A stretch of 64,000 bases of DNA, taken from contig NC_134431.1 in assembly GCF_030867145.1 (NCBI RefSeq), positions 8,323,089 to 8,387,088 of the forward strand, written 5' to 3'. Shown here piece by piece: positions 3,953-31,556 of this stretch. The notes beneath the pieces were generated by a model. It did not search any database. It had not been told where the DNA came from and was given only the letters and a program-made list of their open reading frames with translations. The translations under genes and the position numbers were made by a program. How positions within the stretch are numbered: position 1 is the first letter of the stretch; each line of letters starts with the position of its first letter. The stretch is from Opisthocomus hoazin. Lineage: Eukaryota; Chordata; Aves; Opisthocomiformes; Opisthocomidae.

Positions 3953-4392
3953 ATGGGGCAGCGGCGGGGCACGGCCGTGCTGCTCCTCGGCCTGGGTAAG
4001 GCTGCCCGGGCGGGGGTCGGGCTGGGGGGGCCCGGGCGGGGGGCGATGCGATGCGATGCGATGCGATGCGATGCGATGCGGGGTCCCCTCCCCGCTGCCC
4101 GGGTGGGTGCCGCGCGTCTCTCCCCGGGGGGTCCTGGCTGCCGGTGCCGAGCCGGCCGTGCCCCCCCTCCCGTCCCCCCGGAGGGCGGTGGGCTCCGTGC
4201 CCCGAGGGCTGGGCGCTCACGCCGACCCCCTGGGCGGCTGGCAGGGCACCTGGCCGGGCTGCTGGCAGCGGGCACCGCCTGCGCCGACGTGTACCGAGGC
4301 TTCTCGGGCTGCGTCCTCAAGCTGGGGGAGAAGATGGCCACGGCCGAGGAGGCGGACGGCGTCGAGCTGCGGGGCTTGCGCCGAGTCTGCGG
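3953..4392 (+). pseudogene. Neuritin-like gene 5' copy 1 (exons 1-2 only)
   Basis: Exon 1 is 3953-3995 (signal peptide start MGQRRGTAVLLLGL, donor gtaagg) and exon 2 is 4245-4392 (donor gtgagt). Together they encode the signal peptide and the first half of the neuritin domain, with Cys27, Cys37 and Cys63 and the family motif YRGFSGCVLKLGEKM. No terminal exon follows within the unit: the intron is cut at 4680 and replaced by retroelement DNA. Read-through gives a stop (TGA) at the splice donor. The reading frame, promoter and both donors are intact, so it may still be transcribed. Splicing to the only terminal exon, at 31331, would be frame-compatible, whereas splicing into the exon 2 of another copy would not. 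It is classed as a truncated gene copy. Confidence 0.85.
4044..4080 (+). repeat. (CGATG)n microsatellite in neuritin-like intron 1, copy 1
   Basis: There are about 7.4 perfect units of CGATG. Copies 2 and 3 have about 4.4 units, so this is the main length difference between units. Confidence 0.95.
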
Positions 4393-4494
4393 GTGAGTGC
4401 GGCCCCGGGAGGGCGAGAGCCGCGACGGAGCTGGGGCCCGAGGGGTGCCCGACTCTGCCACTGCCCTCCTGGGTGCCGCTACTGCGTGCGCTCC

Positions 4495-4560
4495 CTCCGT
4501 CCATCCCTCCATCCATCCCCCTATCCATCCCTCCGTCCATCCCTCCCTCCGTCCGCCCAT
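4495..4560 (+). repeat. (CATC)n-type simple repeat, copy 1
   Basis: This is an imperfect run of CCATCCCTCCAT-type units in neuritin-like intron 2. It lies at the edge of the segment that is missing here but present in copy 3. Confidence 0.85.
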
Positions 4561-4680
4561 CTGGAGCTGGGAGCCAGCGTGGGGCTGGTGGCATCTCTGC
4601 TGTGTGCGTGATGCTGCCCCGGAGCCGGCCTGGGCAAGTCGCTTGCCGGCAGCCTGGCTGGCCGAGCAGAGGGAGGCTGT

Positions 4681-5636
4681 ATGAACTGGAGGATGGTGAA
4701 AGAAGGCCTGGAAATGGATCCTTAATATGTAGTACTTTATTACAATGAACGCTGTTTTGTAGTAGGCTGGAAAACTGAGACGAGGTGCTGGATGTTGATG
4801 CCTTTGTGGCTTTGTATGAAAAAGCAGATATCCAAATGATGTGCAATAAAATGAAAAGATATGGCATGCAATGGTGGCCAAAGGATAAACTGGACGTGGG
4901 GTTGGACGGCTGGAAAATGGGTCGTTGCAGTTTAATCCTGAATTGCAGTTGATGTTGTTTTGTTGTGGACTGGGGAAGTGTTGCTGCTGTTGTATGTTGA
5001 TGCTCTGGTGGGTTTGTATAGAAATGCGAGTATTCCAAAGAAGTGTAAAGGAGAAGAAGTGTTGATGCCCCGTATGGAAGAGAGATGGCAAGCCGTACGT
5101 CAGCAGTGGCAGCCTGCTTCTGGGGCTGCTTCAGTTCTGCCTCTTCAGCTGTTTTGGTTTAGTGAAGCCAGGGAAGGCAGAGCATGGTGAGAGTGTGTTG
5201 GGCAAGTTGCTGTTCAGGGCTGCTGCAGTGATTTGATAATGAGTCTGTCTTGACTTTTACGCTCTGGTCCAAGGAATCTGAAGCAGCTAGGTGTTTTTCA
5301 TTTTCTCCCCGGAGTAAACTTCAGTTCTGTTCTTTTGCCGCTTGTTGTGAGGAGGAGGAGGAGGAGGGAGGTGGTAGTCTGTGGTGTTTGCACCTTGTGT
5401 ACAGCATTTGGGCAATTGTAGGGGTACCAAAGGCAGGCTTTGAAAATTTGCGGTAGAGCTTTCTTTGGGTTTAGACCTTTGTTAGGAAAGTTGTGCAGCT
5501 TGTGTCCACAAGGCATCTCCTGGGTGAGTTTGGTATTTCTGTGTTGGAGTGGGGGTAAGAGAAGAAAGCCAGTCCCTGTCTGTTGTGCAGGGGATGAGCA
5601 GGAGGAAGAAACTGCAGAAAGCAGGATGGAGTAGGA
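4681..5636 (+). other. Unassigned block with a diverged 205-b direct repeat, copy 1
   Basis: Immediately after the breakpoint the sequence becomes AT-richer. Two stretches resemble each other about 205 b apart: TGTTGATGCCTTTGTGGCTTTGTATG at about 4791 and TGTTGATGCTCTGGTGGGTTTGTATA at about 4996, with further matching on both sides. No gene is recognised. It sits directly 5' of the gag-like sequence and could be retroviral leader or gag DNA, but I see no clear LTR. Confidence 0.45.
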
Positions 5637-7317
5637 CGAATGTCTCCATCTCAACTGATAGAAACAGCGTACAAAGTATGTAACAATTGGGCCGAAGGAG
5701 AGCAAAGGGAAAAACAAAAGGAGAAATGGAGACAGACAGCAGCAGGCGACATTACTCGCCGCAGCCGTTGGGAGGAACTGGGCGAGAGGCAGAGGAAGGA
5801 CATGGGAGAAAGGAATGCCCAAAGACTGAAGAACAGCCCTGCCCCGTTCGGTGACGTACTTGCCAAGGAGGCAGAAGACTGGCAAGGGCAGCGTCCTTCT
5901 GTGACTGTACTGCAGTGTGCAGGTGGTGTGTGAACAGGGACCGCTTCCGAACAAGGATGCCCAAGAGCTGCCACTGGTCTGTTAAATTTCCTGGGACTTG
6001 CTGGATCCAGAGTGCACTGACAGAGCGCTGGGATTGTCTGAAAACATGCGAGTACACGTACGGAGAGACTCACAGTCTGCCTTTGGGGTGATAGATGCCC
6101 GTGGAGCCGTATGGGAAGAAAGAGGCCTCTTGTCCTCCCCAGGAACTCCACTGAAGCAGGGAAAGGCAATTTTGGACTTTATTCCAGGCCGTTCTCCAGC
6201 CAGAGGCAGTGTCTGTAATGCACTGCAAAGCCCCTCAGAAAGGCCACAGAGACCTCGTCAGTGGCAATGGAAAGGCTGATGAGACAGCCAAAAGGGCAGC
6301 TTGGGCCGAGTCCTTGGGGGGGGCTTTGATGCCGACGGGAAGAGACTCATGTGGGGGCAGATGCGGACATAGCAGACATCCGACGATCTGCCACAGGACC
6401 AAGACTGCAAAATAGAGAAAAGCCGTCCTTCGGGATGAGTGAAAAGGGGACAAACTCCAGGGGAGTAGTGGCAAAAGGATTTCTCTGAATTACCCAGGTG
6501 CCACCAGTTTACATAGTGATTGGTATTGGTGGGAACCTTTTCTGGATGGCCAGAGGCTTTCCCGTGCCGAGCCAGCCAAGCCAGGGAGGCAGTCAGAGTG
6601 CTGCTGAAAGAAACAATTCCAAGATTCGGTACCCCTGAAGGAACAGCCTCAGATAACGGGCCCCGCTTTTTTGCTAAAATTGTCCAGAGAGCTGCTAAGT
6701 TCTTGCAAAGTGATTGGGATTTACACGCTCCTTGGAGGCCGCAAACCAGTGGGAAGGTAGAACGGGTGAATCGAAGTTTAAAAAGACAGCTTTCAGGTTT
6801 ATGCCAGGATACCCAAGAGAAGCGGACAGAGATTGTAGCTCTGGCAGTGTCAGGAGTCAGCATTGCTGCCAGAGCGAGGGAAGGGGTGAGTCCTTTTGAG
6901 GTTCTGGGTGGTCAACCGTATCCTGTAAACAAGCTGACGGGAAAGAGCGATCACATCCCTGTGGAAGGAGACCGGATCCCAACGGAGCGTCTGCTGTCGC
7001 GAGGGCGTCCTTTGTCTTCCCGTCCCAGGTCCCTGCCCAAGCAAGCGCCTGCTCCCCTGGGCGCTGCAGGGCGTGCCTTTCCTCCGGGAGAGCAGGTCTG
7101 CGTCCGGAGCTGGAAAGATGAACCTCTGAAAGAGCGCGGGGAGGGCCCGTGTTTGGTATTGCTGCTTGCCCCCACGGCTGTGGAAGGGGAAGGAACAGAT
7201 TGTGGGATCCCCTACACGCGGGGGGAAAAACATCCCTGCGAAAGACTGGACGTCGAGAGGAACGGCACCATGGAACCTGCAGCTGACTCGGAATTGGATG
7301 AACGGTGCTTGGGCTGA
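5637..7317 (+). mobile_element. Endogenous retrovirus relic (gag, RNase H, integrase pieces), copy 1
   Basis: In order on the + strand there is a gag capsid-tail-like stretch at about 5640-5760 (SQLIETAYKVCNNW followed by a charged KQKEKW run), then RNase H-like pieces at about 6000-6330 (DSQSAFGVIDARGAVW; GNGKADETAKRAAW), then an integrase-like open frame at 6520-7317 with SDNGPRFF and WRPQTSGKVERVNRSLK. This pattern fits a gammaretrovirus-like pol. Most of protease and reverse transcriptase is absent, and the remaining pieces are in different frames with stops, so it is a defective fossil. I could not delimit LTRs. The 3' end abuts the tail of a CR1 inserted in the opposite direction. Confidence 0.8.
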
Positions 7318-7348
7318 GACAGAATCCATAGCTCTCACAGGTCGTGTT

Positions 7349-9985
7349 CATAGAATCATAGAAAGTTTTGGGTTGGAAGGGTCCCCTAGAGGTCATCTAG
7401 TCCAACCCCCCTGCAGCGAGCAGGGACACCGCTAACTAGATCAGGTTGCTCAGAGCCCTGTCCAACCTGGTCTTGAATGTTTGCTGGGATGGGGCCTCCA
7501 CTTCCTGTCTGGGCAACCCGGTCCAGTGTTTCACAATTGTAAAGAATTTCTTCCTAATATCCAGCCTAAACCTACCCTGTTTTAGTTTAAAACCATTACC
7601 CCTTGTCCTGTCACTGTTGTCTCTACTAAAGATTGTCCCCATCTTTCCTATAGGCTCCTTTAAGTACTGAAAGGCTGCAATCAGGTCCCCTCTCAGCCTT
7701 CTCTTCTCCAGGCTGAACAAGCCCAACTCTCTCAGCCTGTCCTCACAGGAGAGGTGCTCCAGCCCTCGGATCATTTTTGTAGCCCTCCTTTGGACCCACT
7801 CCAACAGTTCCATGTCCTTCTTGTGCTGAGGGCTGCAGAGCTGAACGCACTACTCCAGGTGAGGTCTCACCAGAGCAGAGTAGAGGGGCAGAATCACCTC
7901 TCTCGACCTGCTGGCCACGCTTCTCTTGATGCAGCCCAGGACACGGCTGGCCCTCTGGGCTGCCAGCGCACATTGCCGGCTCATGTCCAGCCTTTCGTCT
8001 GTCAGCACCCCCAAGTCCCTCTCAGCAGGGCTGCTCTCGATCCTTTCATCCCCCAGCCTGTATTGATAGCGGGGATTACCCTGACCCAGGTGTAGGACGT
8101 TGCACTTGGCCTTGTTGAACCTCACGAGGTTCACACAGGCCCACCTCTCCAGCTTGTCCAGGTCCCTCTGGATGGCATCCCATCCTTCTGGTGTATCAAC
8201 CGTACCACTCAGCTTGGTGTCATCTGCAAACTTGCTGAGGGTACACTCGATGTCGCTGTCCATGTCATTGATAAATATATTGAACAGCACCGGTCTCAGT
8301 ACAGACCCCTGAGGGACTCCACTCGTCACTGGTCTCCATCCGGACATTGAGCCGTTGACCACTATGCTTTGGCTGCGACCATCCAGCAATTCCTTATCCA
8401 CCGAATGGTCCACCCATCAAATCCATGGCTCTCCAATTTAGAGAGAAGGATGTTGTGGGGGACCATGTCAAAGGCTTTAAAAAATCCAGATAGATGACAT
8501 CCATTGGTTTTCCCTTGTCCACCCTTGTTGTTACGCCATCATAGAAAGCCACTAGGTCGGTCAGGCAGGACTTGCCCTTGGTGAAGCCATGCTGGCTGTC
8601 TCGAATCACCTCCCTGGCCTCCATGTGCCTTAGCACATCTTCTAGGAGGATCTGTTCCATGATCTTCCCAGGCACAGAGGTGAGGCTGACAGGTCGGTAG
8701 TTCCCAGGGTCTTCCTTTCTACCCTTTTTGAAAAGGGGCACAATGTTTCCCTTTTTCCAGTCACTGGGGACTTCCCCTGACTGCCATGACTTTTCAAATA
8801 TCATGGAGAGTGGCTTGGCAACTACATCAGCCAGTTCCCTCAGGACTCTGGGATGCATCTCATCAGGTCCCATGGACTTCTGTACGTTTCGGTTCCTCAG
8901 GAGGTCCCGAACCTGGTCTTCACTTACAGCTGGAGGGATTTTACCCTCCTGGTCTCCTTCACGCCATCCATCGACTCGGGAGGGGTGAGGAGAGAGGTTG
9001 CCAGGGAAGACTGAGGCAAAAAAGTTGTTGAGTACCTCAGCTTTCTCCTCATCTGCTGTTACCAGTTTGCCGGTCTCACTCGTGAGCGAGGGTACGCTTT
9101 CTTTGACCGTCTTTTACCGGCTGACATACCTGTAGAAGCCCTTCTTGTTATTTTTCGCATCCCTTGCCAAGTTCAGCTCCAGCTGTGCCTTGGCCTTCCT
9201 GACCCCATCCCTACACAACCGGGCAGCTTCCCTATACTCTTGCCAGGAAGCCAGTCCCTGCTTCCACTGCCTGTGCAGTTCCCTCTTCTTCCTTAGTTTG
9301 ACCAGCATCTCTTGTCTCAGCCATGCCGGTCTCTTCCCTTCTCTGCTCGACTTCTTCCACTTGGGGATCGAGAGCTCTTGCGCTCTGTGGAATACATCCT
9401 TAAAGACCTGCCAGCTCTGTTCTGTTCCCCTGTCCCTGAGGACCATTTCCCAGGGAGTCGTTCTGACTATCTCCTGGAAGAGCTGGAAATTTGCCCTCCT
9501 AAAATTTAGGGTCCTGACTATGCTCTTCGTTATTCCCATTTCCCTCAGCAGCGTTAGTTCCACCAGCGCGTGGTCACTGCAGCCCAGGCTGCCTCCGATC
9601 TTGACATCCCCAACGAGCTCACTCGCACTGGTGACCACCAGGTCTGGTATCGCATCCCCTCGGATACGGGTTGCTTATTACCTGGCTTAAGAAGTTGACC
9701 TCAATGCATTCTAGGAATCTGCTGGATTGCCTACAGCTTGCCGTGTTGCTTTTCCAGCAGATGTCGGGGTGGTTGAAGTCCCCCAGTAGGACGAGAGCCT
9801 GCGAGCGCAAAGCCTCCTGGAGTTGGAGGAAGAACGCTTCGTCTGTCAGCTCCTCTTGATCTGGCGGCCTGTAGTAGACACCAACCACTAAGTTCCCTTT
9901 GTTGCCTCTCTCTCCGATTCTTACCCATAAGCTTTCGACCTGCTCGTGGTTATTCTTCAGGGACAGCTCTTCACTCTGTAGAGTT
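7349..9985 (-). mobile_element. CR1 LINE, long 5'-truncated element, copy 1
   Basis: The 3' terminus is at the left, with the CATAGAATCATAGAAA tail. Reading leftward on the minus strand there is endonuclease sequence ([35 protein letters not shown]) at about 9985-9500, a linker with [15 protein letters not shown], and reverse transcriptase in two pieces ([17 protein letters not shown] with [13 protein letters not shown] at about 8870-8450; [23 protein letters not shown] and FADDTKL at about 8413-7850). The C-terminal domain with [23 protein letters not shown] is at about 7810-7440. Frame breaks show it is inactive. The 5' end is truncated inside the endonuclease. Confidence 0.93.
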
Positions 9986-11214
9986 CAAGGGGGATTGTTC
10001 TTGTACCTTCTTACATTAGGAGGAACAATAGCGTTACTAACATGCATCTTTGTAGATGTCCTGATCCCTTGAGAGCAGGGAGCGAAAGACACAGGGAGAA
10101 TGATCTCCCTCTTCTGTCTAACAATATTTTGACATGGCACCCAAGGGAGCCGGGAAGGTTACCCGACTCCATGGAACTCTAACGTCCATCTGGGATGAAT
10201 GGAAAGAACTCTGAGAGCTGCAAATCCAACCGGCTGCTGGGTGTGTGCTCCGTTCCCGGAACGTGCAGGACAAGGGATCCCCTTGGGTGGGATCCCGATT
10301 CCAGCAAATATTTCTTCACAGGAGCTGTGGAAGGACATAGACCAGAGTGGATGAAACTTGACGGATTAAGATGAAATTTGTCAACAAAGTAACATTTTAC
10401 ACGCAATTCAAAAGGATGACCCTTGTTTGGGGACTGAAGAGACCTGGGAATGGCTACGCTCTGGGGTCCCCAATTTACATAGAATCACAGAACGGTAAGG
10501 GTTGGAAGGGACCTTGAAGATCATCTAGTTCCAACCCCCCTGCTATGAGCAGGGACATCTTCCACTAGACCAGGTTGCTACATATGTGCAGAAAGAAATT
10601 ACTGAGCTTAGTACTGATCGAATTAATTATTTTTGTATGTTTATGTGGTACTACAATGTACCTGCAAGTGTTGCTCTGCATGAACTGACTGATCTGTGGA
10701 GAAGGTGAGACTTATCCAAGGAATACTCTTAGACAGTCTCAAAAGTGGGCATGGTGCTCAGTTGAACTCAGCACTATACAAGTAAGCACAGAAGGTCAGT
10801 CTGACCCAATTATTGAACTTGAACGTGTAGTCTGGGATGAACAGAAGGCCAAGATTTCATCAAGTGGCTGATGCGGAGCCTCTAGTCAGGAGCCTCTGTC
10901 CTTGGGAACGAAGTGTGTCTTGGAAGAACATGTAAGCTAGCTAAGATGGTTTTGAACGGTTTGGAGCCGCCATCAGAAGAATGATAAAGAGTGGCCATGA
11001 ACAAACTATCCTCATTCTAATACTACTAATCCCACGCCCTGAGCTGGTGACCGCGGCCCAAGCAGAGACTCTTATTTACCGAGCACGCCAAGTAGATTGT
11101 GGGACTGCTGTATTTTTAAACCGAAGTGAGAAGAGGACTGAGCAGTCCTGGTTAGGAGGGTATGGCTAATAGGCAGAACTGACATTTTGAACTGTATAAA
11201 TGTGCAATGTGATT
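9986..11214. other. Unassigned sequence with a CR1 tail insertion, copy 1
   Basis: No gene is identified. An ORF at 10981-11169 (+) starts with a hydrophobic leader-like stretch (TILILILLIPRPELVTAAQ), and short frames around 10250-10470 look glycoprotein-like. This could be a retroviral envelope remnant, but the evidence is weak. A 100-b CR1 3' tail (10479-10578) interrupts it. The remainder is AT-rich and featureless to my reading. Confidence 0.35.
10479..10578 (-). mobile_element. CR1 3' tail fragment, copy 1
   Basis: CATAGAATCACAGAACGG followed by GGGTTGGAAGGGACCTTGAAGATCATCTAG is the reverse complement of a CR1 3' end. It is severely 5'-truncated at about 100 b. Confidence 0.9.
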
Positions 11215-12480
11215 GTCCACTGCTCTCCCCTCATCTACCCGGTCGGTCGTGCTATGACCGAAGGCTATCGGGTTGCTCAAGCATGATTTCCCCTTGGTGA
11301 ATCCATGATGACTACTCCCGATAACCTTCTTTTCCTGCACTTGCTTACAGATGACATCCCGAATGAGCTGCTCCGTCACCTTTGCAGGGATGGAGGTGAG
11401 GCTGACTGGCGTGTAGTTCCCTGGTTCGTCCTTCTCGCACTTTTTGAAGACAGGAGTGACACTGGCTTTCCTGCATTTCTCGTGTTCTCCAGGCCCTTTC
11501 AAGGATGATGGAGAGTGGCTTAGCAATGCCATCTTCCAGCTCCCTCAGTACTTGTGGGTGCATCCCGTCAGGGCCCGTGGATTTGTGGGTGTCTCATTTG
11601 CTAAGGTGATCTCTAACCTGATCCTCCCTGACCAAGGGAAGGTCTTCCTTTCTCCAGGCTTCCTCTCGGGCCTCCATGGACTGGGATTCCTGAGGGCCAG
11701 CCTTAGGAGTAAAGAATGAAGCAAAGAAGGCTTTCAGCACTTGTACCTTCTCTGTATCCTCTGTCAGCAAGGCACCCACCTCATTCAGCAGCGGCCCCAG
11801 TTTCCCTAGTCTTCCTTTTCTCTTGGTGGACTTGAAGAAGCCCTTCTTGTTGTCTTGGACATCCCTTGCCAGACTTGATTCCCGATGGACCTTGGCCTTT
11901 CTCGTTGCTTCCGTGCATGCTCTGACTATGTTCCTGTATTCTTCCCAAGTGGCCTGACCCTCCACTGGCCTCCCCACCGCTCTGCAGGAGCCTCCTGGAC
12001 TGTGTGTGCCTGGCTGTGTGGTCTTTCCAGCAGCTCTCGAGGTGGTTGAGGTCCCCCATGAGGACCAGGGCCCTTGATGGGGAGGCTGCTTTGAGCTGGC
12101 TGCAGAAGGCCTCATGGCCTTCCTCTTCCTGGCCAGGTGGCCTGTGGTGAACACCTGCAGCAGTGTCAGCTGTATGAGCCTGTCCCTTGATGCTGACCCG
12201 TCAGCTCTCCAGTCATTCTTCACCCACGCCCAGGCAGGGCTTGACACATTCCAGCTGCTCCCTCACACACAGAGCAACTCCCCGCCCGGCCTTGCTGGCC
12301 GTAGCCATCCATGACAGCACTGCAGCCCTGCGAGCTGTCCCACCACGTGTGTCACTGCACTGGGATCGTGGCCCTGCGACCGCACCGATCTCTGGTTGTT
12401 GCTGTTCATTCCCCACGCTGCGTGTGTGGGTGTAGAGGGGTTTGCGAGAGGTGATGGAGCGTGCAGGTCTCCCTGGAGGG
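11215..12480 (-). mobile_element. CR1 LINE fragment spanning the copy 1/copy 2 boundary
   Basis: On the minus strand this holds an endonuclease-like N-terminus (about 12470-12000), a linker, and the start of reverse transcriptase ([49 protein letters not shown]). It stops at about 11215, shortly after DRVDEGRAVD, so the catalytic part of RT and the 3' end are missing. It is frameshifted throughout. Confidence 0.88.
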
Positions 12481-13748
12481 GTGCAAGAGGATCCGCCATG
12501 GCCATACCCACCCTTGAGGTGGTTGGCCTTCTGCTTCTCAGCTTGGGGGGCAGCTGAGGAGCATTTGTCACCGTTCTGGTTGGCCTGGCTCATTCCCCAG
12601 TTGGATGCGATGGCTGGAGCACTGGGACGTCGGACCCTGCCCCCCGAGTCCCTCAGCGGAAAGCTGCCACACCAAGCTCCCCCTTGAAGCGGGGAGTCCT
12701 GGCCAGAGGCTGATGGCAGCACATCTCGTCGTTTTCTCGGCAGCCTTCAGAGTGCGTTGGGCGCGGGTCCTGGCACGGGCTCACCCCGGGACGTGCCCAG
12801 CCGGAGCTCGTGGCAGCGCAGCCGTGTCCTAGCAGCCCCCCATCCAGAGCCGCACAGGGGCGAATTCCACCTGCCGTGGCCGTAGCCGGCCTGGAGGACA
12901 TCGGCAGTGCTGGGGTCGGCTTGCTGGCTGCTGGTGGGCCAAGGACGGAGCGAAGGAGGTGGCCCTCGCCCCGCGGAGCTGTCCCCAGGGCCCGGCCCTT
13001 GTGCAGCTTGGAGGTGGCGGAGCCAGCAGGCCTCCCTGCGAGGGAGGGGGCTTTGCCCTGGGGTGGGAGCGGCAAGAGCCCCAGCGTTGTCCTGCAGCCA
13101 TGGTGGGACGGGAGCGCTCAGGGGCCGCCGCTGGGCAGCAGAGCTGGGCTGGGGGCTGGAACCACGGCCGGGCTGAGGTGCCCCCCGGAGCTGCCCAGGG
13201 CTGGGCGCTGGGGCGAGTGGACGGAGGGGATCTGCTGGTGACGCATCTGTGCCGACTCCTGGAAGAGCCGCTGCTGGCGGCAGCGCTCTGCCCCGCGCCC
13301 TGCCCAGCCGTGGCGTCTGGTGTGGAAGCCCAGCAGTGTGTTGACTGCGCCTCGAGGGCAGCGTGAGAACTCCCCGAGGCTCCCCAGGAAGCTGCAGCCC
13401 CTTCAGGGGTCGTCCCCATCCCCCGCTGCGCAGCCGGCACCGGAACTCCCGTCCGTGTCACAGAGGTGTGATGTCACGGCCCGTGTTCCAGCCGCGACGG
13501 CCAGCGCCCGGCGACGAGCACAACGCAGCCCTGCTCCCCTGCTCCAGACACAGCCCTCCTGCCGGCGCAGCCCTGCTCCTCGGCTCGCAGCGGATCTTTC
13601 TCCCCTTTCTCCCGACCCAGCCTTTCTCCTCTGCTCCAGGCGGTTCCTTTCTCCCCTGCTCCAGACCCATCCTTTCTCCCGACCCAGCCCTTCTCCCCGG
13701 ATCCCAGCGCGTCGCTGCCCGTCTCGCCGGTGCCATCTCGGTGCCATC

Positions 13749-14940
13749 ATGGAGCACTGGCGGAAGACGGTGTTTGTGCTGCCGCAGGTACAGCCGGGCT
13801 GCAGGGAGCTTGGCTCGCCCTGTCCAGCCAGCCCTGCGAGGCCCCGGGCTGGGAGAAGCCCTTCTGGCTGCTGCTGCCCTGCTGCAATGGAGCATCCCTG
13901 CCTGGGGGGACCCGTCCCCGGGCTGGTGCCGCAGGGATGCTCGGCGGGAGCAGCCGGGTGCTGCCCAGAGCCTGAGCCGGTGCCTCCTCTGCCCCTTCCC
14001 AGGCTGGAGCCATCGGAGCCAAGGCTCACCGGCCCAGCATCAAGATGCTGAAAAGCCGCCTGCGCAGAGTAAGGAGCTGCTGGGCGCCGAGGCGGGCGCG
14101 GGGCCGGGGTGCGTGGCCGGGGCCCGCGGGGCAGGGAGCGGGGCCGCTCACCCCTGCCCTCTCTGCTGCGGCAGGTCTGGAGGATGCTGCCGCTGCCCAA
14201 GCTGCTGAAGCGCATGAAGCGCAGGATCCTGCGGCTGCAGGCCATGGCCCGGGAGGAGTGGTGGGTGCTGGTGGCGAGGGAGCTGCCCAGCTGCGGCCGG
14301 CTGCTGCTGGGGCCGTGCCCGGGCGGGGAGAGGGGCAGGGGTGCCGAGACCCCCGTCCCACGGGTGCGCTCGGCTGGCCAGGGCAGGACCAACGCACTTC
14401 TCTGCTTGGCTCTTGGCGTAGGATGTACGAGTACATGCTGCTGGTGGAGGAGGAGGAGGAGGAAGACGAAGTGGATGAGGACAGCGAGATAGACTGGGAT
14501 GCGGTTGAGGCTGTGGAAATGGACATGGAGATGGAGATGGAGATGGACCCACCAGCAGTGGAACAGGCACGTGCTCCCCATGCACTGCCCGCAGTCGGTG
14601 GCTTCACCAGCTGCCGGGCTGGGTCTGGGTCTGGGGTGGGGGGTCCCCGCTGCAGGGACCCGGCACCCCGTCCCCTCATCCTGGCGGCACAACTGCCAGC
14701 GCCGCGCTGCCTTGAGCACCCGTGGGGTGTTGGGGAGGGGGCGATTCCGTGGGGCTGGGCAACCACCGCCTGACCCCGAGCCCAGGGGGCTCAGCGCTGG
14801 CGGCAGAGTCCCGCTCTGCCCCGCGTGTCCCAGGGCTCTGCACACGCAGGGCCCGCAGGACGCAGCCCAGCCCGAAGCAGCTGCTGCCGCGGAGCCGGCC
14901 GGGGAGCCCCAGCTCTGCGCGGCGAGGGGCTGCGCGGTAG
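13749..14940 (+). CDS. TP53TG5-like protein gene, copy 2
   Basis: The proposed coding exons are 13749-13787, 14003-14068, 14175-14314, 14422-14570 and 14786-14940, the same model as copy 1. All splice sites, the start codon and the stop are kept, so no disabling change is seen. The acidic segment reads EEEEEEDEVDED (Glu where copy 1 has Lys). As in copy 1, the N-terminal basic leucine-rich helix is the reason for the TP53TG5 call, and the exon 3/4 and 4/5 junctions are tentative. The gene is followed by an intact AATAAA. Confidence 0.6.
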
Positions 14941-15068
14941 CCAGACGGCCGCGCCGCTTGCGTGTCCTCCAGGGCTGGCGGAGGTGCGGGGCCTGGTGGT
15001 GCGGGAGCTGAGCCGCGGAGGAAGATGCGGTGTTTGTTGTTTGTTGTTTGTTGTGTTGTTTCTCTGTC

Positions 15069-15074
15069 AATAAA
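15069..15074 (+). terminator. Poly(A) signal of the TP53TG5-like gene, copy 2
   Basis: AATAAA lies in the same TTTGTTG-rich upstream and GT-rich downstream context as in copy 1. Confidence 0.75.
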
Positions 15075-15603: not shown

Positions 15604-15627
15604 TCATTAGCGGCGCTCATTAGCGGC
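15604..15627 (+). promoter_or_regulatory. Twin TCATTAGCGGC motif in the neuritin-like promoter, copy 2
   Basis: Two direct copies 13 b apart, as in copy 1, lie about 80-100 b upstream of the start codon of the truncated neuritin-like gene. Confidence 0.45.
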
Positions 15628-15706
15628 GGGCGGGGCGGGTGTGGGGACGCGGGCAGCGGGCGCGGGGCTGGAGCCCGGGCGGAGCGGAACGGAGCGGAGC
15701 GGCGGG

Positions 15707-16131: not shown

Positions 16132-16233
16132 GTGAGTGCGGCCCCGGGAGGGCGAGAGCCGCGACGGAGCTGGGGCCCGAGGGGTGCCCGACTCTGCCAC
16201 TGCCCTCCTGGGTCCCGCTACTGCGTGCGCTCC

Positions 16234-21724: not shown

Positions 21725-22953
21725 CAAGGGGGATTGTTCTTGTACCTTCTTACATTAGGAGGAACAATAGCGTTACTAACATGCATCTTTGTAGATGTCC
21801 TGATCCCTTGAGAGCAGGGAGCGAAAGACACAGGGAGAATGATCTCCCTCTTCTGTCTAACAATATTTTGACATGGCACCCAAGGGAGCCGGGAAGGTTA
21901 CCCGACTCCATGGAACTCTAACGTCCATCTGGGATGAATGGAAAGAACTCTGAGAGCTGCAAATCCAACCGGCTGCTGGGTGTGTGCTCCGTTCCCGGAA
22001 CGTGCAGGACAAGGGATCCCCTTGGGTGGGATCCCGATTCCAGCAAATATTTCTTCACAGGAGCTGTGGAAGGACATAGACCAGAGTGGATGAAACTTGA
22101 CGGATTAAGATGAAATTTGTCAACAAAGTAACATTTTACACGCAATTCAAAAGGATGACCCTTGTTTGGGGACTGAAGAGACCTGGGAATGGCTACGCTC
22201 TGGGGTCCCCAATTTACATAGAATCACAGAACGGTAAGGGTTGGAAGGGACCTTGAAGATCATCTAGTTCCAACCCCCCTGCTATGAGCAGGGACATCTT
22301 CCACTAGACCAGGTTGCTACATATGTGCAGAAAGAAATTACTGAGCTTAGTACTGATCGAATTAATTATTTTTGTATGTTTATGTGATACTACAATGTAC
22401 CTGCAAGTGTTGCTCTGCATGAACTGACTGATCTGTGGAGAAGGTGAGACTTATCCAAGGAATACTCTTAGACAGTCTCAAAAGTGGGCATGGTGGTCAG
22501 TTGAACTCAGCACTATACAAGTAAGCACAGAAGGTCAGTCTGACCCAATTATTGAACTTGAACGTGTAGTCTGGGATGAACAGAAGGCCAAGATTTCATC
22601 AAGTGGCTGATGCGGAGCCTCTAGTCAGGAGCCTCTGTCCTTGGGAACGAAGTGTGTCTTGGAAGAACATGTAAGCTAGCTAAGATGGTTTTGAACGGTT
22701 TGGAGCCGCCATCAGAAGAATGATAAAGAGTGGCCATGAACAAACTATCCTCATTCTAATACTACTAATCCCACGCCCTGAGCTGGTGACCGCGGCCCAA
22801 GCAGAGACTCTTATTTACCGAGCACGCCAAGTAGATTGTGGGACTGCTGTATTTTTAAACCGAAGTGAGAAGAGGACTGAGCAGTCCTGGTTAGGAGGGT
22901 ATGGCTAATAGGCAGAACTGACATTTTGAACTGTATAAATGTGCAATGTGATT
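21725..22953. other. Unassigned sequence with a CR1 tail insertion, copy 2
   Basis: This is the counterpart of 9986-11214, including the leader-like short ORF at 22720-22908 and a CR1 tail at 22218-22317. A retroviral envelope origin is possible but not shown. Confidence 0.35.
22218..22317 (-). mobile_element. CR1 3' tail fragment, copy 2
   Basis: This has the same 100-b CR1 3' end and the same position in the unit as in copy 1. Confidence 0.9.
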
Positions 22954-24219
22954 GTCCACTGCTCTCCCCTCATCTACCCGGTCGGTCGTGCTATCACCGA
23001 AGGCTATCGGGTTGCTCAAGCATGATTTCCCCTTGGTGAATCCATGATGACTACTCCCGATAACCTTCTTTTCCTGCACTTGCTTACAGATGACATCCCG
23101 AATGAGCTGCTCCGTCACCTTTGCAGGGATGGAGGTGAGGCTGACTGGCGTGTAGTTCCCTGGTTCGTCCTTCTCGCACTTTTTGAAGACAGGAGTGACA
23201 CTGGCTTTCCTGCATTTCTCGTGTTCTCCAGGCCCTTTCAAGGATGATGGAGAGTGGCTTAGCAATGCCATCTTCCAGCTCCCTCAGTACTTGTGGGTGC
23301 ATCCCGTCAGGGCCCGTGGATTTGTGGGTGTCTCATTTGCTAAGGTGATCTCTAACCTGATCCTCCCTGACCAAGGGAAGGTCTTCCTTTCTCCAGGCTT
23401 CCTCTCGGGCCTCCATGGACTGGGATTCCTGAGGGCCAGCCTTAGGAGTAAAGAATGAAGCAAAGAAGGCTTTCAGCACTTGTACCTTCTCTGTATCCTC
23501 TGTCAGCAAGGCACCCACCTCATTCAGCAGCGGCCCCAGTTTCCCTAGTCTTCCTTTTCTCTTGGTGGACTTGAAGAAGCCCTTCTTGTTGTCTTGGACA
23601 TCCCTTGCCAGACTTGATTCCCGATGGACCTTGGCCTTTCTCGTTGCTTCCGTGCATGCTCTGACTATGTTCCTGTATTCTTCCCAAGTGGCCTGACCCT
23701 CCACTGGCCTCCCCACCGCTCTGCAGGAGCCTCCTGGACTGTGTGTGCCTGGCTGTGTGGTCTTTCCAGCAGCTCTCGAGGTGGTTGAGGTCCCCCATGA
23801 GGACCAGGGCCCTTGATGGGGAGGCTGCTTTGAGCTGGCTGCAGAAGGCCTCATGGCCTTCCTCTTCCTGGCCAGGTGGCCTGTGGTGAACACCTGCAGC
23901 AGTGTCAGCTGTATGAGCCTGTCCCTTGATGCTGACCCGTCAGCTCTCCAGTCATTCTTCACCCACGCCCAGGCAGGGCTTGACACATTCCAGCTGCTCC
24001 CTCACACACAGAGCAACTCCCCGCCCGGCCTTGCTGGCCGTAGCCATCCATGACAGCACTGCAGCCCTGCGAGCTGTCCCACCACGTGTGTCACTGCACT
24101 GGGATCGTGGCCCTGCGGCCGCACCGATCTCTGGTTGTTGCTGTTCATTCCCCACGCTGCGTGTGTGGGTGTAGAGGGGTTTGCGAGAGGTGATGGAGCG
24201 TGCAGGTCTCCCTGGAGGG
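22954..24219 (-). mobile_element. CR1 LINE fragment spanning the copy 2/copy 3 boundary
   Basis: This is the third instance of the endonuclease-linker-partial RT fragment, with the same 3' truncation after the DRVDEGRAVD region. Confidence 0.88.
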
Positions 24220-25487
24220 GTGCAAGAGGATCCGCCATGGCCATACCCACCCTTGAGGTGGTTGGCCTTCTGCTTCTCAGCTTGGGGGGCAGCTGAGGAG
24301 CATTTGTCACCATTCTGGTTGGCCTGGCTCATTCCCCAGTTGGATGCGATGGCTGGAGCACTGGGACGTCGGACCCTGCCCCCCGAGTCCCTCAGCGGAA
24401 AGCTGCCACACCAAGCTCCCCCTTGAAGCGGGGAGTCCTGGCCAGAGGCTGATGGCAGCACATCTCGTCGTTTTCTCGGCAGCCTTCAGAGTGCGTTGGG
24501 CGCGGGTCCTGGCACGGGCTCACCCCGGGACGTGCCCAGCCGGAGCTCGTGGCAGCGCAGCCGTGTCCTAGCAGCCCCCCATCCAGAGCCGCACAGGGGC
24601 GAATTCCACCCGCCGTGGCCGTAGCCGGCCTGGAGGACATCGGCAGTGCTGGGGTCGGCTTGCTGGCTGCTGGTGGGCCAAGGACGGAGCGAAGGAGGTG
24701 GCCCTCGCCCCGCGGAGCTGTCCCCAGGGCCCGGCCCTTGTGCAGCTTGGAGGTGGCGGAGCCAGCAGGCCTCCCTGCGAGGGAGGGGGCTTTGCCCTGG
24801 GGTGGGAGCGGCAAGAGCCCCAGCGTTGTCCTGCAGCCATGGTGGGACGGGAGCGCTCAGGGGCCGCCGCTGGGCAGCAGAGCTGGGCTGGGGGCTGGAC
24901 CCACGGCCGGGCTGAGGTGCCCCCCGGAGCTGCCCAGGGCTGGGCGCTGGGGCGAGTGGACGGAGGGGATCTGCTGGTGACGCATCTGTGCCGACTCCTG
25001 GAAGAGCCGCTGCTGGCGGCAGCGCTCTGCCCCGCGCCCTGCCCAGCCGTGGCGTCTGGTGTGGAAGCCCAGCAGTGTGTTGACTGCGCCTCGAGGGCAG
25101 CGTGAGAACTCCCCGAGGCTCCCCAGGAAGCTGCAGCCCCTTCAGGGGTCGTCCCCATCCCCCGCTGCGCAGCCGGCACCGGAACTCCCGTCCGTGTCAC
25201 AGAGGTGTGATGTCACGGCCCGTGTTCCAGCCGCGACGGCCAGCGCCCGGCGACGAGCACAACGCAGCCCTGCTCCCCTGCTCCAGACACAGCCCTCCTG
25301 CCGGCGCAGCCCTGCTCCTCTGCTCGCAGCGGATCTTTCTCCCCTTTCTCCCGACCCAGCCTTTCTCCTCTGCTCCAGGCGGTTCCTTTCTCCCCTGCTC
25401 CAGACCCATCCTTTCTCCCGACCCAGCCCTTCTCCCCGGATCCCAGCGCGTCGCTGCCCGTCTCGCCGGTGCCATCTCGGTGCCATC

Positions 25488-26679
25488 ATGGAGCACTGGC
25501 GGAAGACGGTGTTTGTGCTGCCGCAGGTACAGCCGGGCTGCAGGGAGCTTGGCTCGCCCTGTCCAGCCAGCCCTGCGAGGCCCCGGGCTGGGAGAAGCCC
25601 TTCTGGCTGCTGCTGCCCTGCTGCAATGGAGCATCCCTGCCTGGGGGGACCCGTCCCCGGGCTGGTGCCGCAGGGATGCTCGGCGGGAGCAGCCGGGTGC
25701 TGCCCAGAGCCTGAGCCGGTGCCTCCTCTGCCCCTTCCCAGGCTGGAGCCATCGGAGCCAAGGCTCACCGGCCCAGCATCAAGATGCTGAAAAGCCGCCT
25801 GCGCAGAGTAAGGAGCTGCTGGGCGCCGAGGCGGGCGCGGGGCCGGGGTGCGTGGCCGGGGCCCGCGGGGCAGGGAGCGGGGCCGCTCACCCCTGCCCTC
25901 TCTGCTGCGGCAGGTCTGGAGGATGCTGCCGCTGCCCAAGCTGCTGAAGCGCATGAAGCGCAGGATCCTGCGGCTGCAGGCCATGGCCCGGGAGGAGTGG
26001 TGGGTGCTGGTGGCGAGGGAGCTGCCCAGCTGCGGCCGGCTGCTGCTGGGGCCGTGCCCGGGCGGGGAGAGGGGCAGGGGTGCCGAGACCCCCGTCCCAC
26101 GGGTGCGCTCGGCTGGCCAGGGCAGGACCAACGCACTTCTCTGCTTGGCTCTTGGCGTAGGATGTACGAGTACATGCTGCTGGTGGAGGAGGAGGAGGAG
26201 GAAGACGAAGTGGATGAGGACAGCGAGATAGACTGGGATGCGGTTGAGGCTGTGGAAATGGACATGGAGATGGAGATGGAGATGGACCCACCAGCAGTGG
26301 AACAGGCACGTGCTCCCCATGCACTGCCCGCAGTCGGTGGCTTCACCAGCTGCCGGGCTGGGTCTGGGTCTGGGGTGGGGGGTCCCCGCTGCAGGGACCC
26401 GGCACCCCGTCCCCTCATCCTGGCGGCACAACTGCCAGCGCCGCGCTGCCTTGAGCACCCGTGGGGTGTTGGGGAGGGGGCGATTCCGTGGGGCTGGGCA
26501 ACCACCGCCTGACCCCGAGCCCAGGGGGCTCAGCGCTGGCGGCAGAGTCCCGCTCTGCCCCGCGTGTCCCAGGGCTCTGCACACGCAGGGCCCGCAGGAC
26601 GCAGCCCAGCCCGAAGCAGCTGCTGCCGCGGAGCCGGCCGGGGAGCCCCAGCTCTGCGCGGCGAGGGGCTGCGCGGTAG
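25488..26679 (+). CDS. TP53TG5-like protein gene, copy 3
   Basis: The proposed coding exons are 25488-25526, 25742-25807, 25914-26053, 26161-26309 and 26525-26679, about 182 aa. The reading frame, first-intron splice sites and poly(A) signal are intact. It shares Glu after the EEEEEED run with copy 2. This copy is in the least rearranged context: the complete neuritin-like gene follows downstream, then SYS1 in the opposite direction. It is therefore the best candidate for the original locus. The TP53TG5 assignment rests on the basic leucine-rich N-terminal helix plus synteny with SYS1 and SDC4, and the junctions around exon 4 need transcript support. Confidence 0.62.
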
Positions 26680-26807
26680 CCAGACGGCCGCGCCGCTTGC
26701 GTGTCCTCCAGGGCTGGCGGAGGTGCGGGGCCTGGTGGTGCGGGAGCTGAGCCGCGGAGGAAGATGCGGTGTTTGTTGTTTGTTGTTTGTTGTGTTGTTT
26801 CTCTGTC

Positions 26808-26813
26808 AATAAA
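26808..26813 (+). terminator. Poly(A) signal of the TP53TG5-like gene, copy 3
   Basis: AATAAA is in the same context as in copies 1 and 2 and ends a compact transcription unit about 630 b before the neuritin-like start codon. Confidence 0.75.
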
Positions 26814-27328
26814 TGGATTTGTCGGTGCTGTCTCGGCCCCAGGCTGTCTGTCGGAGCCTGGCATTCTCTGCGGCCGTCGAGGGGCAAGGCGCCCAGGCCT
26901 GGGGGCTCTGCAGCCGCAGCCGCTGCGGGCCCTGCTCGGTGCCCTGCGCCGCTGCAGCCTGTGCCAGCGAGAGCGCTGGAAGTGGGGGTGCACGAAGGGA
27001 GCCCCAGCCCGCAGCAAGGCGGCCCCGGCCCTGCCCGGCTTCCCGCTGCCGGCAGCGGCCGCGGCCCCCGTTTCCCCGTCGGGGCGAGGCGGGGAGCGGG
27101 CGCGGGGGGCTGCGGGGAGAGGGTGCTGGAGAAGGGGTGCGGCGGGGTCCCTGGGCGGGGGGGTGGCGGCTGCGGGGAGCCGCGGGACTGCGGGGCTGGG
27201 AGGTGCGGGGGTGCCGCCCGCAGGGAGCCGCGGTGGGGCCGGGGCTGTGGCGGGCAGGGGCCGGGGGGCCGCGGGTGCGGGCCCGGGGCTGCCCCGGGCG
27301 CTCGGGAGCCGCGGCCCCGCCCCCTCCC

Positions 27329-27352
27329 TCATTAGCGGCGCTCATTAGCGGC
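27329..27352 (+). promoter_or_regulatory. Twin TCATTAGCGGC motif, promoter of the complete neuritin-like gene
   Basis: Two direct TCATTAGCGGC copies 13 b apart lie about 90-113 b upstream of the start codon, inside a CpG-rich region lacking TATA. Conservation across copies is expected from their recency, so it does not by itself prove function. Confidence 0.45.
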
Positions 27353-27441
27353 GGGCGGGGCGGGTGTGGGGGTGCGGGCAGCGGGCGCGGGGCTGGAGCC
27401 CGGGCGGAGCGGAACGGAACGGAACGGAACGGAGCGGCGGG

Positions 27442-30400
27442 ATGGGGCAGCGGCGGGGCACGGCCGTGCTGCTCCTCGGCCTGGGTAAGGCTGCCCGGGC
27501 GGGGGTCGGGCTGGGGGGGCCCGGGCGGAGGGCGATGCGATGCGATGCGATGCGGGGTCCCCTCCCCGCTGCCCGGGTGGGTGCCGCGCGTCTCTCCCCG
27601 GGGGGTCCTGGCTGCCGGTGCCGAGCCGGCCGTGCCCCCCCTCCCGTCCCCCCGGAGGGCGGTGGGCTCCGTGCCCCGAGGGCTGGGCGCTCACGCCGAC
27701 CCCCTGGGTGGCTGGCAGGGCACCTGGCCGGGCTGCTGGCAGCGGGCACCGCCTGCGCCGACGTGTACCGAGGCTTCTCGGGCTGCGTCCTCAAGCTGGG
27801 GGAGAAGATGGCCACGGCCGAGGAGGCGGACGGCGTCGAGCTGCGGGGCTTGCGCCGAGTCTGCGGGTGAGTGCGGCCCCGGGAGGGCGAGAGCCGCGAC
27901 GGAGCTGGGGCCCGAGGGGTGCCCGACTCTGCCGCTGCCCTCCTGGGTGCCGCTACTGCGTGCGCTCCCTCCGTCCATCCCTCCATCCATCCCCCTATCC
28001 ATCCCTCCGTCCGTCCATCCCTCCCTCCATCTGTCTCTATCCTTCATCCGTCTGTCTGCTGCATGGCTCCAGCCGAGTATGCATCCCCGGCCCTGAGCCA
28101 TAGCTCCAGCCCCCAGGGCTTGTCCCGGGACCCTCTGCGCGCCCGCAGCCGGGGGAGCGGGGCTGGTGGGAGCGGGCCCCCTCTGCCCCCCAGGAAAGGC
28201 TCCCCTGGACCCCCAGGCTTCAGGCAGCGACTCGCCTGTGACCGGGCTGTCCCAGGGCCCAGCGCTGCAGGGAGCAGCCTGCACCCGGCCTCTGGCCAGG
28301 TCCTGCTGCCCAAACCAAGCCTCCCTCTCCCTCCCTCCCTTGCTGCTGAGACCTTTGGTGCTTCTGGCTGGAACTGGTCCTGCCCTTGGCTTTCGTGAGT
28401 GCAGAGCCAGTGCCCGGAGCTGGAGGTGTTGGGAGGATGGGAACTGCAGCCCGAATGCCATCACAGCAAAGGGGTTGGGTACCAGGGGGAGGTGTTGGGT
28501 GGCGCTGGGGAAAGCAAAGGTGCAGAAGCAGTGAGGTGGGGGGGACAAGTGCAAGGTGGAAATAAAGTGTTTGTGGAGAGAATTGGAGGAAGCTGTGTGT
28601 GCCCAGCAGTGAGCTGTGGGGAGTGGAAAGGAGTTGCAAGGACATGCAGACAGCAATGAAGGGAAAAGCCAGGTGGGTTGGGGTGGTGGCAAGGGGAGGG
28701 CTGACTGCCCTGTGGGTCAGGCTTTGCAAGCTGCCAGAAAGCAGCTGGTCCTGGCTGGAGGAAAAGGGTGATGATGTCCCAGCTTTCTGCCAGGAAGCAT
28801 TTCTGAATTATTGTCCCTTAACTCTCAGCCTTCTGCGCTGCCGTCTGCTTTGCTGGTGCCATGGTCCCCTCTCTGCGAGTGTGGGTGAGGGACGGACGCG
28901 GAGCTGGGAGCCGGCGTGGGGCTGGTGGCATCTCTACTGTGTGCGTGGTGCTGCCCCGGAGCCGGCCTGGGCAAGTCGCTTGCCGGGAGCCTGGCTGGCT
29001 GAGCAGAGGGAGGCTGTGAAGGGTGAAACACTGGCAATTGCCATCCTGGCTGAAAACAGAACCAGGCAGGTTTCATCCCCCTCTGCCTTCCCGCAGCCAT
29101 CCTTTGCCCAAAGACAGGGGCCAGGTTTAACCCTCGCCTGGCAGACCTGCCTTCTGTTGCTGCCACAGCTCGGGAGTGAGCGCGGGAGGTTACCTGGGCT
29201 GGCAGCAGCTTTTCCCATTATCTGGAGACATTTATTCTGCCACAGTGACTCAGTTTAATGAGCTCCCTCACAGCTGGCGTTCTGACGTAAACCCCAGTAG
29301 GAAAACTGAACAGAGCGCTCGGGTCCACGTGTCTGCGCAAGGTGTTTTCTCCAGAACAGGGCACTTGGATAAAACCAAGCTGCTCCTGTCCTGTGTGCGG
29401 GGTCCCTGCTCCTCCGGCCGGGCTGCGTCTCCTTCCCAAGGGGTGGCATGCGTGCCTGCTGTCCTGGTGGGACGGGTAAGGTGGCAGAGCACAGCTCCTT
29501 CCTCTAGGCAGTTCCCAGCTTGCAGGTAAATTATGGCCTGGATGTGGTGCCCAGCCCCAGCAAACATGGGACTGGACAGCAAACCTGAGGTGGAGGGGAG
29601 GGCAGGGGGTGTTCTGGGGTGTGAGTCCCTCGGTGCTGTGGGCTGGCAGAGCTGGGGAGCCCGCTGGAACCTGGGGAGTGCTCCGGACGGCTGGTCCCTG
29701 CCTTGCCCTGGCGTTGGGTTCCAAGACCTGCATTGCTCCAGAGAAGCTGCAGTAGAGAAATGCTTTTGCAAAGCTCTCTTCAGGTAAAATAAACTCTCTT
29801 TGAAAGGAGTCATGGGGGGGAAGATGAGTGGCAAGCATGGCACAGAGCCTTATCTGTCCCTTGGGGAAGTCTTTGTTTTGGAGGGGAACCACTTCCCGAG
29901 GAGAGGATGGCCCGTGGCATTTGCTGAGACTTTCAGGCTGCTGCTGTTTCGTTTGGTGGGTTTGTGCCTGTAAAACAGAGACCCTGCCTGTGAATTCAGC
30001 TGTGTCAGGACTTACAGACATGCCAGTGTGCATGCAGCGACCTGCCAGGCTATGGGTGCCCTACCCACCGTGGCACCTACAGCAGCCTTTGGGGAGTCCG
30101 ACACAGCATCTGACACCCCACTATCCTCAGATACTCAGCAGCCAAAAAGAGATCTGGCAGGGGTGCTCATTCTCGTCCTCCCTGCGGTGGCTGGGGGAAC
30201 ACAGCCCAGTGGTACCTGCTGTCCTGGTCCCTGGGAGCTGGAGCCCACCCCTCACAGCTCGGCTTCACCCCTGTGGGCAGAGAGCTCGCTGGAAACGGCT
30301 CAAACCCGGCTTCTTCAGAGCCACTGTGCTCCTTCGCCAGAGGTAAGGAAGGTGCTCAGGGAGGGGATAAAGCCTTGGCAGGCTGGACACCGCTCTGGAG

Positions 30401-31556
30401 AAAGGCAGCGTGGGGTCACGCTGCGTGGTGCTGGCTCCAGCATGCCAGACCGGTGAGGTGGTGTCCACCATGGCGCTCCTGGGAGAGTCTTCTCGAGGGC
30501 TGCGGTTTTCAGCTCTGTTTCTGCTGGGATTTTTCCCTGCCTGGTTCTAGCTCTGGATTGGGGGGGCGGGGGGGGAGAATCCAAGTCCCTGTCCCCAGGG
30601 AGGCAGCCAGCCAAGGGGTCTTCAGCGAGCAGCAGGTTCTTTGCCTGTCATCTTGATTTTCCCTGGTGCTCCCCAAGAACTTCTTTCCATTAAACGGCTT
30701 CATGGGGCGGGGGAACCGACCTCATGCTACAGGCATGAGCTTTGTGGAGACTCATGGGCAGAGCTGCTGCCAGTGGAAGAGCTGCATGGATGGATAGCGG
30801 CTCTTTGGAAAGCTGCTGAGGGGTGGGTTTTTTCTTTTTCAACTTCACCACTCATGCAGGGTAATACCCAGCAGATAAATGGAGATGTGTCTAATGAGAA
30901 CACAGTGAATATCTCGTCCTGGCCATACCTTAGTTATAAACCTCTGACCATCTGTGGGAGATGTTGTCCTTCCCTTTGTTTTGTGCTTGTATTTTGCCCT
31001 TGACTCAGCTTGGAGAAAGCTGTGAACGAAACATACTGGGCCTTTGTGCACAGCCTGTTTCAGATACTCAGGGTGCTTGGTGCCGAAGGGAAACACTTGT
31101 TGATGGAAAATAATGGATTTTATTGACTTCCAGAGGAATTTTTAAAAAGTCAAGAAATAATTTCAGTGTGTTTTGATGTTTGGAGTTTTAGCCAAGATGC
31201 TCTGGGAGACAACGGAGGAGGTGAATGATCTGGGCAACCTGCACAAAACACAGAGGATGTCGCTGCTCGAAGGGTGGGCTTGGGGCAGCTCTGCAGAGGG
31301 GCTGACGGTGCACTGTCTCCCCGGCTGCAGGTACTGGGATGAATTTCACACGTGTGCCCTGACGGTGCTTTGGGAGTGCCAGAGGGAAGCAGCAGCCATC
31401 TGGGAGATGCTGAGAAGGGAGTCTCGAAAAATCAAATTTCAAGGCAGCTTGTTCGACCTCTGCAGCCCTGGCATGGCCGAAAGCTTTGCATGGACCCATG
31501 TTCCCAACGTTTCCGTCCTCGGCATCCCCCTCGTCATCACTTGGCTGAACTTATAA
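27442..31556 (+). CDS. Neuritin-like GPI-anchored protein (complete gene)
   Basis: The coding exons are 27442-27484, 27719-27866 and 31331-31556, giving 138 aa, close to the 142 aa of NRN1. Splice sites are gtaagg, gtgagt and ctgcag, and the phases (1, then 2) join correctly. Residues 1-24 are a signal peptide. The neuritin core has six cysteines (27, 37, 63, 72, 80, 108) and family motifs YRGFSGCVLKLGEKM, VCGYWDEFHTCALTVLWECQ and FQGSLFDLC. The tail (about 121-138, VSVLGIPLVITWLNL) fits a GPI-attachment signal. Neuritins are extracellular GPI-linked proteins that promote neurite growth and synapse maturation. Human NRN1 and NRN1L are on other chromosomes, so this may be a third paralog next to SYS1; I do not assign a symbol. 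Its promoter and exons 1-2 are duplicated twice upstream. Confidence 0.9.
27533..27554 (+). repeat. (CGATG)n microsatellite, copy 3
   Basis: There are about 4.4 units in intron 1, the same length as copy 2. Confidence 0.95.
27970..28055 (+). repeat. (CATC/CGTC)n simple repeat, copy 3
   Basis: This CCATCCCTCCAT-type run continues into CATCTGTCTCTATCCTTCATCC, which copies 1 and 2 lack. It marks the left edge of the segment found only in this copy. Confidence 0.8.
28029..28900. other. Segment present only in copy 3 (neuritin-like intron 2)
   Basis: About 870 b lie between the CATC repeat and the GAGCTGGGAGCC sequence, which are almost adjacent in copies 1 and 2. No gene is recognised. It holds an AATAAA with GT-rich DNA after it at 28561-28566, a possible intronic poly(A) site. 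A deletion shared by copies 1 and 2 explains the pattern most simply; an insertion here is the alternative. Confidence 0.75.
29018..31330 (+). other. Neuritin-like intron 2, single-copy part
   Basis: This is single-copy intronic sequence from the end of array homology to the terminal exon. I found no further coding exon or recognisable transposon. A consensus AP-1 site TGACTCA lies at about 29246. Confidence 0.6.

Follow-up and report, generated by a model that had tools for sequence, protein, structure and literature searches.

A tandem array of promoter-bearing units before a single last exon of a neuritin-like gene in the hoatzin

The window analysed here, a stretch of 64,000 nucleotides from the genome of the hoatzin Opisthocomus hoazin (C18:8323089-8387088), holds the end of a long tandem array that belongs to a neuritin-like gene. 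In this assembly the promoter, exon 1 and exon 2 of the gene occur in 19 head-to-tail copies on C18, followed by a single exon 3, and the three copies inside the window are units 17, 18 and 19, i.e., the last three of the array. The locus is probably a young macrosatellite with an architecture like that of D4Z4/DUX4, in which neuritin is produced chiefly from the last unit. Some 7.8 kb of transposon-rich DNA would have joined the 5' part of the gene, and the composite is now present in 19 tandem units, with exon 3 left outside the array, past the last unit. As exon 3 remained there, full neuritin would come mainly from the promoter of the last unit, 3.5 kb from exon 3. To judge from their CpG decay, most of the other 18 promoters would carry methylation, in the germline if not elsewhere, and their transcripts are predicted mostly to end early, leaving a stub of 64 amino acids (aa), or to splice out of frame.

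A six-frame search of the hoatzin's own genome returned 22 matches: 19 to exon 2 on C18, one to exon 3, and two apparent paralogues, one on C3 and the other on C12. The exon 2 matches on C18 lie between 8139841 and 8350803, all on the plus strand and spaced by 11.6-11.8 kb. To the window we added the 240 kb on its left, and the joined sequence of 304 kb, with an N count of 0, contained 19 copies of exon 1, 19 of exon 2, 18 unit junctions and one exon 3. The array extends from C18 8136378 to 8352105, about 216 kb, and the 15 bp spanning the unit junction are identical in 18 of 18 cases. The start codon, the open frame, the GT donors and the AG acceptor are intact in all 19 copies. Within the window, self-comparison aligned positions 1-16293 with 11755-28028 at 99.46% identity, far above chance. 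With 19 units of 11.6-11.8 kb, the first of them headless, the array is of macrosatellite size, the definition being a tandem repeat unit of at least 100 bp (PMC4063668). The initial annotation had placed exons 1 and 2 at three positions before one exon 3; its coordinates proved accurate, and each of the three sets joined to exon 3 encodes 138 aa. Its count of three is right for the window but not for the array, since the same chromosome carries 19 copies, and the block of promoter and two exons that it described does repeat, but as part of a unit that also includes a transposon-rich head.

Each unit consists of this head (7.7-7.8 kb) and of a tail (3.8-3.9 kb), the gene part, which contains about 3.2 kb of upstream region, exons 1 and 2 and 288 bp of intron 2. 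Unit 1 lacks the head, and its tail adjoins, at 8136378, a flank unlike the unit. In window coordinates, the units and the gene are laid out as follows.

1 to 746, plus strand: head of unit 17, right end only
747 to 4680, plus strand: tail of unit 17, from the upstream region through exons 1 and 2 to 288 bp into intron 2
3953 to 3995, plus strand: coding part of exon 1, unit 17 (43 bp)
4245 to 4392, plus strand: exon 2, unit 17 (148 bp)
4845 to 4850, plus strand: AATAAA of unit 17, 453 bp past exon 2
4681 to 12500, plus strand: head of unit 18, transposon-rich, 7,820 bp
4681 to 5795, strand not assigned: dispersed repeat whose first base is the unit junction
6454 to 6741, plus strand: integrase-core (rve) remnant, exceeding the Pfam cut-off
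8066 to 9879, minus strand: broken pieces of a long interspersed nuclear element (LINE), endonuclease at 9685-9879 and reverse transcriptase at 8553-8720 and 8066-8362
12501 to 16419, plus strand: tail of unit 18
15707 to 15749, plus strand: coding part of exon 1, unit 18
15984 to 16131, plus strand: exon 2, unit 18, with the Thr18 variant (also in unit 15)
16584 to 16589, plus strand: AATAAA of unit 18
16420 to 24239, plus strand: head of unit 19
24240 to 29017, plus strand: tail of unit 19, the sole tail that continues into the rest of the gene
27442 to 27484, plus strand: coding part of exon 1, unit 19
27719 to 27866, plus strand: exon 2, unit 19
28029 to 28899, plus strand: stretch of intron 2 (871 bp) in unit 19 only, with one probe match in the 304 kb
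31331 to 31556, plus strand: exon 3 with the stop codon, 226 bp, single copy at the locus

A six-frame Pfam scan of 4600-16650 yielded neuritin and retroelement pieces only, and no double-homeobox gene; among the three LINE pieces, solely the reverse transcriptase piece at 8066-8362 exceeds the Pfam cut-off. Among the 40 of 113 candidates that were scored, full-length matches to the first 1,720 bp of the head numbered 18, all within the array, and outside the array this stretch was matched solely by the dispersed repeat spanning its first 1.1 kb. This repeat is found in each unit (about 1.1 kb, 4681-5795 in unit 18), and several of its copies elsewhere start at the junction base. Its larger copies show 75-81% identity, and contig C40, which at a guess may be the W chromosome, carries the majority of the listed copies that are not part of the array. 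As the head starts at the end of the dispersed repeat, a transposon end probably marks the breakpoint of the array. Originally, the locus probably read flank, tail, remainder of intron 2 and exon 3; the head may have been inserted between tails at the first duplication or may have been lost later from the left end.

The copies are closely similar, with a divergence of 0.21-0.90% among tails and 0.13-0.83% among heads. Their tree is star-like, with one of 16 inner branches well supported and unit 19 not separate, at bootstrap values that had not settled, and likeness did not follow array position (Mantel r 0.09, with 375 of 2000 permutations as high). A star-like tree together with likeness that is independent of position fits exchange along the array, and we infer that repeated unequal exchange created the units and keeps them alike. 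Divergence of this size is within the range of allelic divergence, which counts for an assembly artefact, i.e., a true locus of one or few units with the remainder being false duplication. False duplications are frequent in bird assemblies, where they can be recognised by gaps, halved depth, discordant links and single-copy k-mers, and the heterozygosity of a hummingbird is given as 0.34% (PMC9516828). However, no gap lies between the copies in the 304 kb, and the sequence is joined seamlessly at both ends of the array. In addition, the copies carry private substitutions and shared indels, among them a 137-bp deletion in 3 of 19 copies, which exceed what two alleles could supply. With 19 distinct copies of this kind, chaining of two alleles is unlikely, though the exact copy number may be off, and we consider an artefact very improbable.

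The encoded protein is a member of the neuritin family (Pfam PF15056, E 6.2e-38, 129.3 bits at a cut-off of 27), in agreement with the name neuritin-like given by the initial annotation. The 138-aa protein matches the Opisthocomus hoazin protein 'neuritin-like' from end to end with 100% identity, and the protein cluster that includes 'neuritin-like' has one hoatzin sequence only. In a midpoint-rooted tree of 42 rows hand-picked from 352 listed proteins, the gene groups with fish neuritin 1b/neuritin-like (96/88), apart from NRN1 (100/98) and NRN1L (100/99). An assignment as NRN1L orthologue was rejected, as the 12 NRN1L rows make a group of their own with this gene outside. By its position in this tree, the gene adds a third member to the vertebrate neuritins besides NRN1 and NRN1L. 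The third neuritin clade is common to sauropsids and fish, and among the 120 listed of 164 matches, some of them without a name, there was no named mammalian protein.

Exon 2 is 148 bp long, and the initial annotation's claim that its end phase fits exon 3 but not another exon 2 was confirmed. A single exon 2 from any unit joined to exon 3 is in phase and yields the 138-aa protein, whereas two exon 2s shift the frame because of the 148-bp length: tandem inclusion of two would give 116 aa and of three 172 aa, with the stop within exon 3 (checked with units 17-19). An mRNA whose stop lies in the last exon need not undergo nonsense-mediated decay, so that mRNAs with several exon 2s need not be lost in this way. 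An in-frame TGA stands at the exon 2 donor, and retention of intron 2 leaves 64 aa (units 17-19). Each of the 18 upstream units has an AATAAA 165 bp past the junction and 453 bp past exon 2, and unit 19 lacks that signal; transcripts ending there would leave the same 64 aa. Exon 2 of unit 19 lies 3.5 kb from exon 3, that of unit 18 lies 15 kb away and that of unit 1 as much as 214 kb; a transcript from unit 1 would have to cross these 214 kb and omit 18 further exon 2s.

These upstream features could also mean that the 18 units have a product of their own, a secreted N-terminal neuritin fragment of 64 aa translated from transcripts that end 450-500 bp past exon 2, as the uniform place of the AATAAA and the TGA right after exon 2 would allow. 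However, such a fragment would, as read from the sequence, hold three of the six cysteines and be without the C-terminal half, it displays no sign of coding constraint, and the common AATAAA would go back to a single founder junction and is not necessarily in use. A dedicated 64-aa product therefore appears quite improbable.

Alternatively, the upstream units may act as active alternative promoters, many of the 19 starts omitting the other exon 2s and joining exon 3 and thereby raising or patterning neuritin output. Intact start codons, frames and splice sites in all copies and the phase of exon 2 agree with this, and the 5' tandem duplication of PEP1 in Arabis alpina, where two starts are spliced to shared exons, provides a precedent (PMC3527215). 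As in the hoatzin, promoter and 5' exon of PEP1 are copied in tandem while the downstream exons are single and shared (PMC3527215). There are, however, two copies in PEP1 and 19 in the hoatzin, and PEP1 copies only exon 1, so that no out-of-phase exon 2 lies in between. The upstream sequences are diverged in PEP1 and near-identical in the hoatzin, and transcripts have been shown for PEP1, whereas those of the upstream hoatzin units are predicted. The distance of 15-214 kb between upstream units and exon 3, the early AATAAA in all 18 of them and the out-of-frame product that results from an extra exon 2 speak against such use.

The copies themselves were further examined for constraint on the coding part. 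Among the 19 tails, 7 of 191 coding sites and 119 of 3537 non-coding sites are polymorphic (p 0.84), and the coding changes comprise four replacements and three silent changes at an expectation of 2.1 to 1 (p 0.69). They look neutral, with no detectable constraint on the coding part, which is unfavourable to active alternative promoters. The replacements are Thr18 in units 15 and 18, Asn29 in unit 1, Ile38 in unit 12 and Cys60 in unit 2. Selection that holds the frames open was considered and is unsupported by this comparison. At this divergence chance alone keeps the frames open, with a probability for 19 copies of 0.80-0.86 for no stop and of 0.74 for no indel, the latter using six indel blocks chosen by eye from 12; the intact frames are therefore uninformative about use. 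For the three window copies alone, the corresponding values are 0.97-0.98 (substitutions) and 0.85 (indels).

CpG sites gave an indication of the state of the promoters. As the three window copies alone provided too few sites, the analysis was redone with 19 copies. In the promoter island (14701-16291), CpG transition polymorphism affects 28 of 355 sites in the 19 tails, compared with 11 of 841 other G/C sites (p 4e-8). The transposon-rich heads (n=18), which are expected to be methylated, show it at 34 of 427 CpG sites and at 30 of 3577 other G/C sites, and the CpG transition rates of island and heads do not differ (p 1). Since CpG transitions are as dense in the island as in the heads, the pattern suggests that most promoter copies are methylated in the germline, CpG decay being an average over copies and time rather than a measurement of methylation, and somatic tissues may differ. 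The same density counts against active alternative promoters. Given PEP1, which shows that the mechanism exists in nature with two copies, we retain this possibility, although it is unlikely.

Several observations weigh against dominance of the last unit. None of the 19 copies has a damaged promoter, frame or splice site. Unit 19 has intronic AATAAA/ATTAAA signals of its own at 28561, 29788 and 30689, so that the contrast in polyadenylation signals is partial. The acceptor of exon 2 is poorer in pyrimidines than that of exon 3 (9/16 vs 12/16), which would make skipping of downstream exon 2s easier. In the core of the island (15201-16131), 17 of 236 CpG sites compare with 10 of 504 other G/C sites, a lower excess (ratio 3.6) than in the heads (9.5), owing to the greater variability of other G/C sites in the core, and CpG content there is still high and alike (117-125 CpG in 19 copies). 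Finally, unit 19 likewise has CpG transitions, and nothing singles it out as the open copy. Of the two options that the initial annotation offered, a bank of alternative promoters is permitted by the phase, which allows the same protein, but nothing supports its use, given seemingly neutral coding sites and CpG transitions; 5' copies that may be dead fit better, although start codon, frame and splice sites are intact throughout.

The locus lies inside the chromosome between DBNDD2 and SYS1. On the left of the array, dysbindin-domain exons (DBNDD2 by position) and Gpi16 (PIGT) exons are found on the minus strand at C18:8124.2-8128.3 kb, DBNDD2 being directed away from the array and about 8 kb from it. 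The neighbours on the right are within the window.

36859 to 38477, minus strand: SYS1 exon pieces (38328-38477 and 36859-37113)
61992 to 62135, plus strand: syndecan-domain exon (SDC4 by position)

Between SYS1 and SDC4, at 44277-45066, there is a pyrimidine-rich (CCTTT-type) tandem repeat of about 0.8 kb with strong strand skew. The chicken orthologue of the neuritin-like gene is labelled 'TP53-target gene 5' in one source. In human 20q13.12 the order is SDC4, SYS1, TP53TG5, DBNDD2 and PIGT, and the chicken label may derive from the position of TP53TG5 between SYS1 and DBNDD2. The N-terminal parts of the gene models of other birds gave no convincing match upstream (best E 0.003, 29% identity), and a PDB search found no match for the neuritin protein or for three minus frames of 49000-63900. 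Faster protein change of the hoatzin exons 1 and 2 was considered and dismissed: in a comparison of 19 birds, 5 of 7 hoatzin-only residues fall there, but other birds have as many or more in these exons (chicken 8 and 2, pigeon 6 and 2).

Within intron 1, a (GCGAT)n microsatellite follows positions 4040, 15794 and 27529, as a block of 0-30 bp that varies among the 19 copies and whose length is a ready marker of the copy. Opposite the promoter region, a stop-free stretch of 737 aa runs on the minus strand (1649-3862), with copies in other units. It is probably GC-driven, with 3 of 200 shuffles equally long and no Pfam domain in the copy in the scanned unit. CTCF-like sites numbered 3 against 3.2 expected, and Rfam at the gathering threshold had no match in the window.

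Among macrosatellites whose units bear promoters and of which only the last makes a functional transcript, D4Z4/DUX4 is perhaps the best known. DUX4 mRNA is made from the most distal D4Z4 copy only, exon 3 is not part of the repeats, and methylation is found in long arrays (PMC7953708). As in human 4q35, the hoatzin array has tandem units with promoter and first exons and a CpG-rich unit (PMC7953708), and a unique exon 3 past the most distal one, here after unit 19. However, the gene is unrelated, the hoatzin unit measures 11.7 kb compared with 3.3 kb, and the array is not a member of D4Z4. Half of the hoatzin protein comes from exon 3, which in DUX4 has the role of supplying the polyadenylation signal; the predicted signal AATAAA is not limited to the distal unit but present in all 18 upstream units, and the hoatzin array has the internal chromosomal position described above. 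Exon-bearing large tandem repeats are already known, and REXO1L1 and other multicopy-gene macrosatellites resemble the hoatzin array in their unit (about 12.2 kb) and in forming a long tandem array (PMC4063668). These are described as multicopy genes, whereas the hoatzin unit has only the 5' part of its gene.

Among the papers listed by searches of the open-licence PMC literature, we found none on the hoatzin array and no description of a comparably large array of promoter plus first exons that precedes a lone coding terminal exon. The hoatzin is not named in the main text of a segmental-duplication survey of 117 vertebrates (PMC13431229). The locus draws attention to the third neuritin gene and illustrates that a single-gene annotation can sit next to a 216-kb promoter array. 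Tentatively, and more as a speculation than as an expectation, a bird may have independently evolved a control device like D4Z4, in which array length and repeat-induced methylation would set the output of the terminal copy, contraction or expansion would change the dose of neuritin, and upstream units, where active, would yield a shortened neuritin of 64 aa or contribute long-range transcripts that reach exon 3. If true, nature would have provided an independent test case for silencing by repeats and for how the terminal copy escapes it, in an unrelated gene with near-identical promoters.

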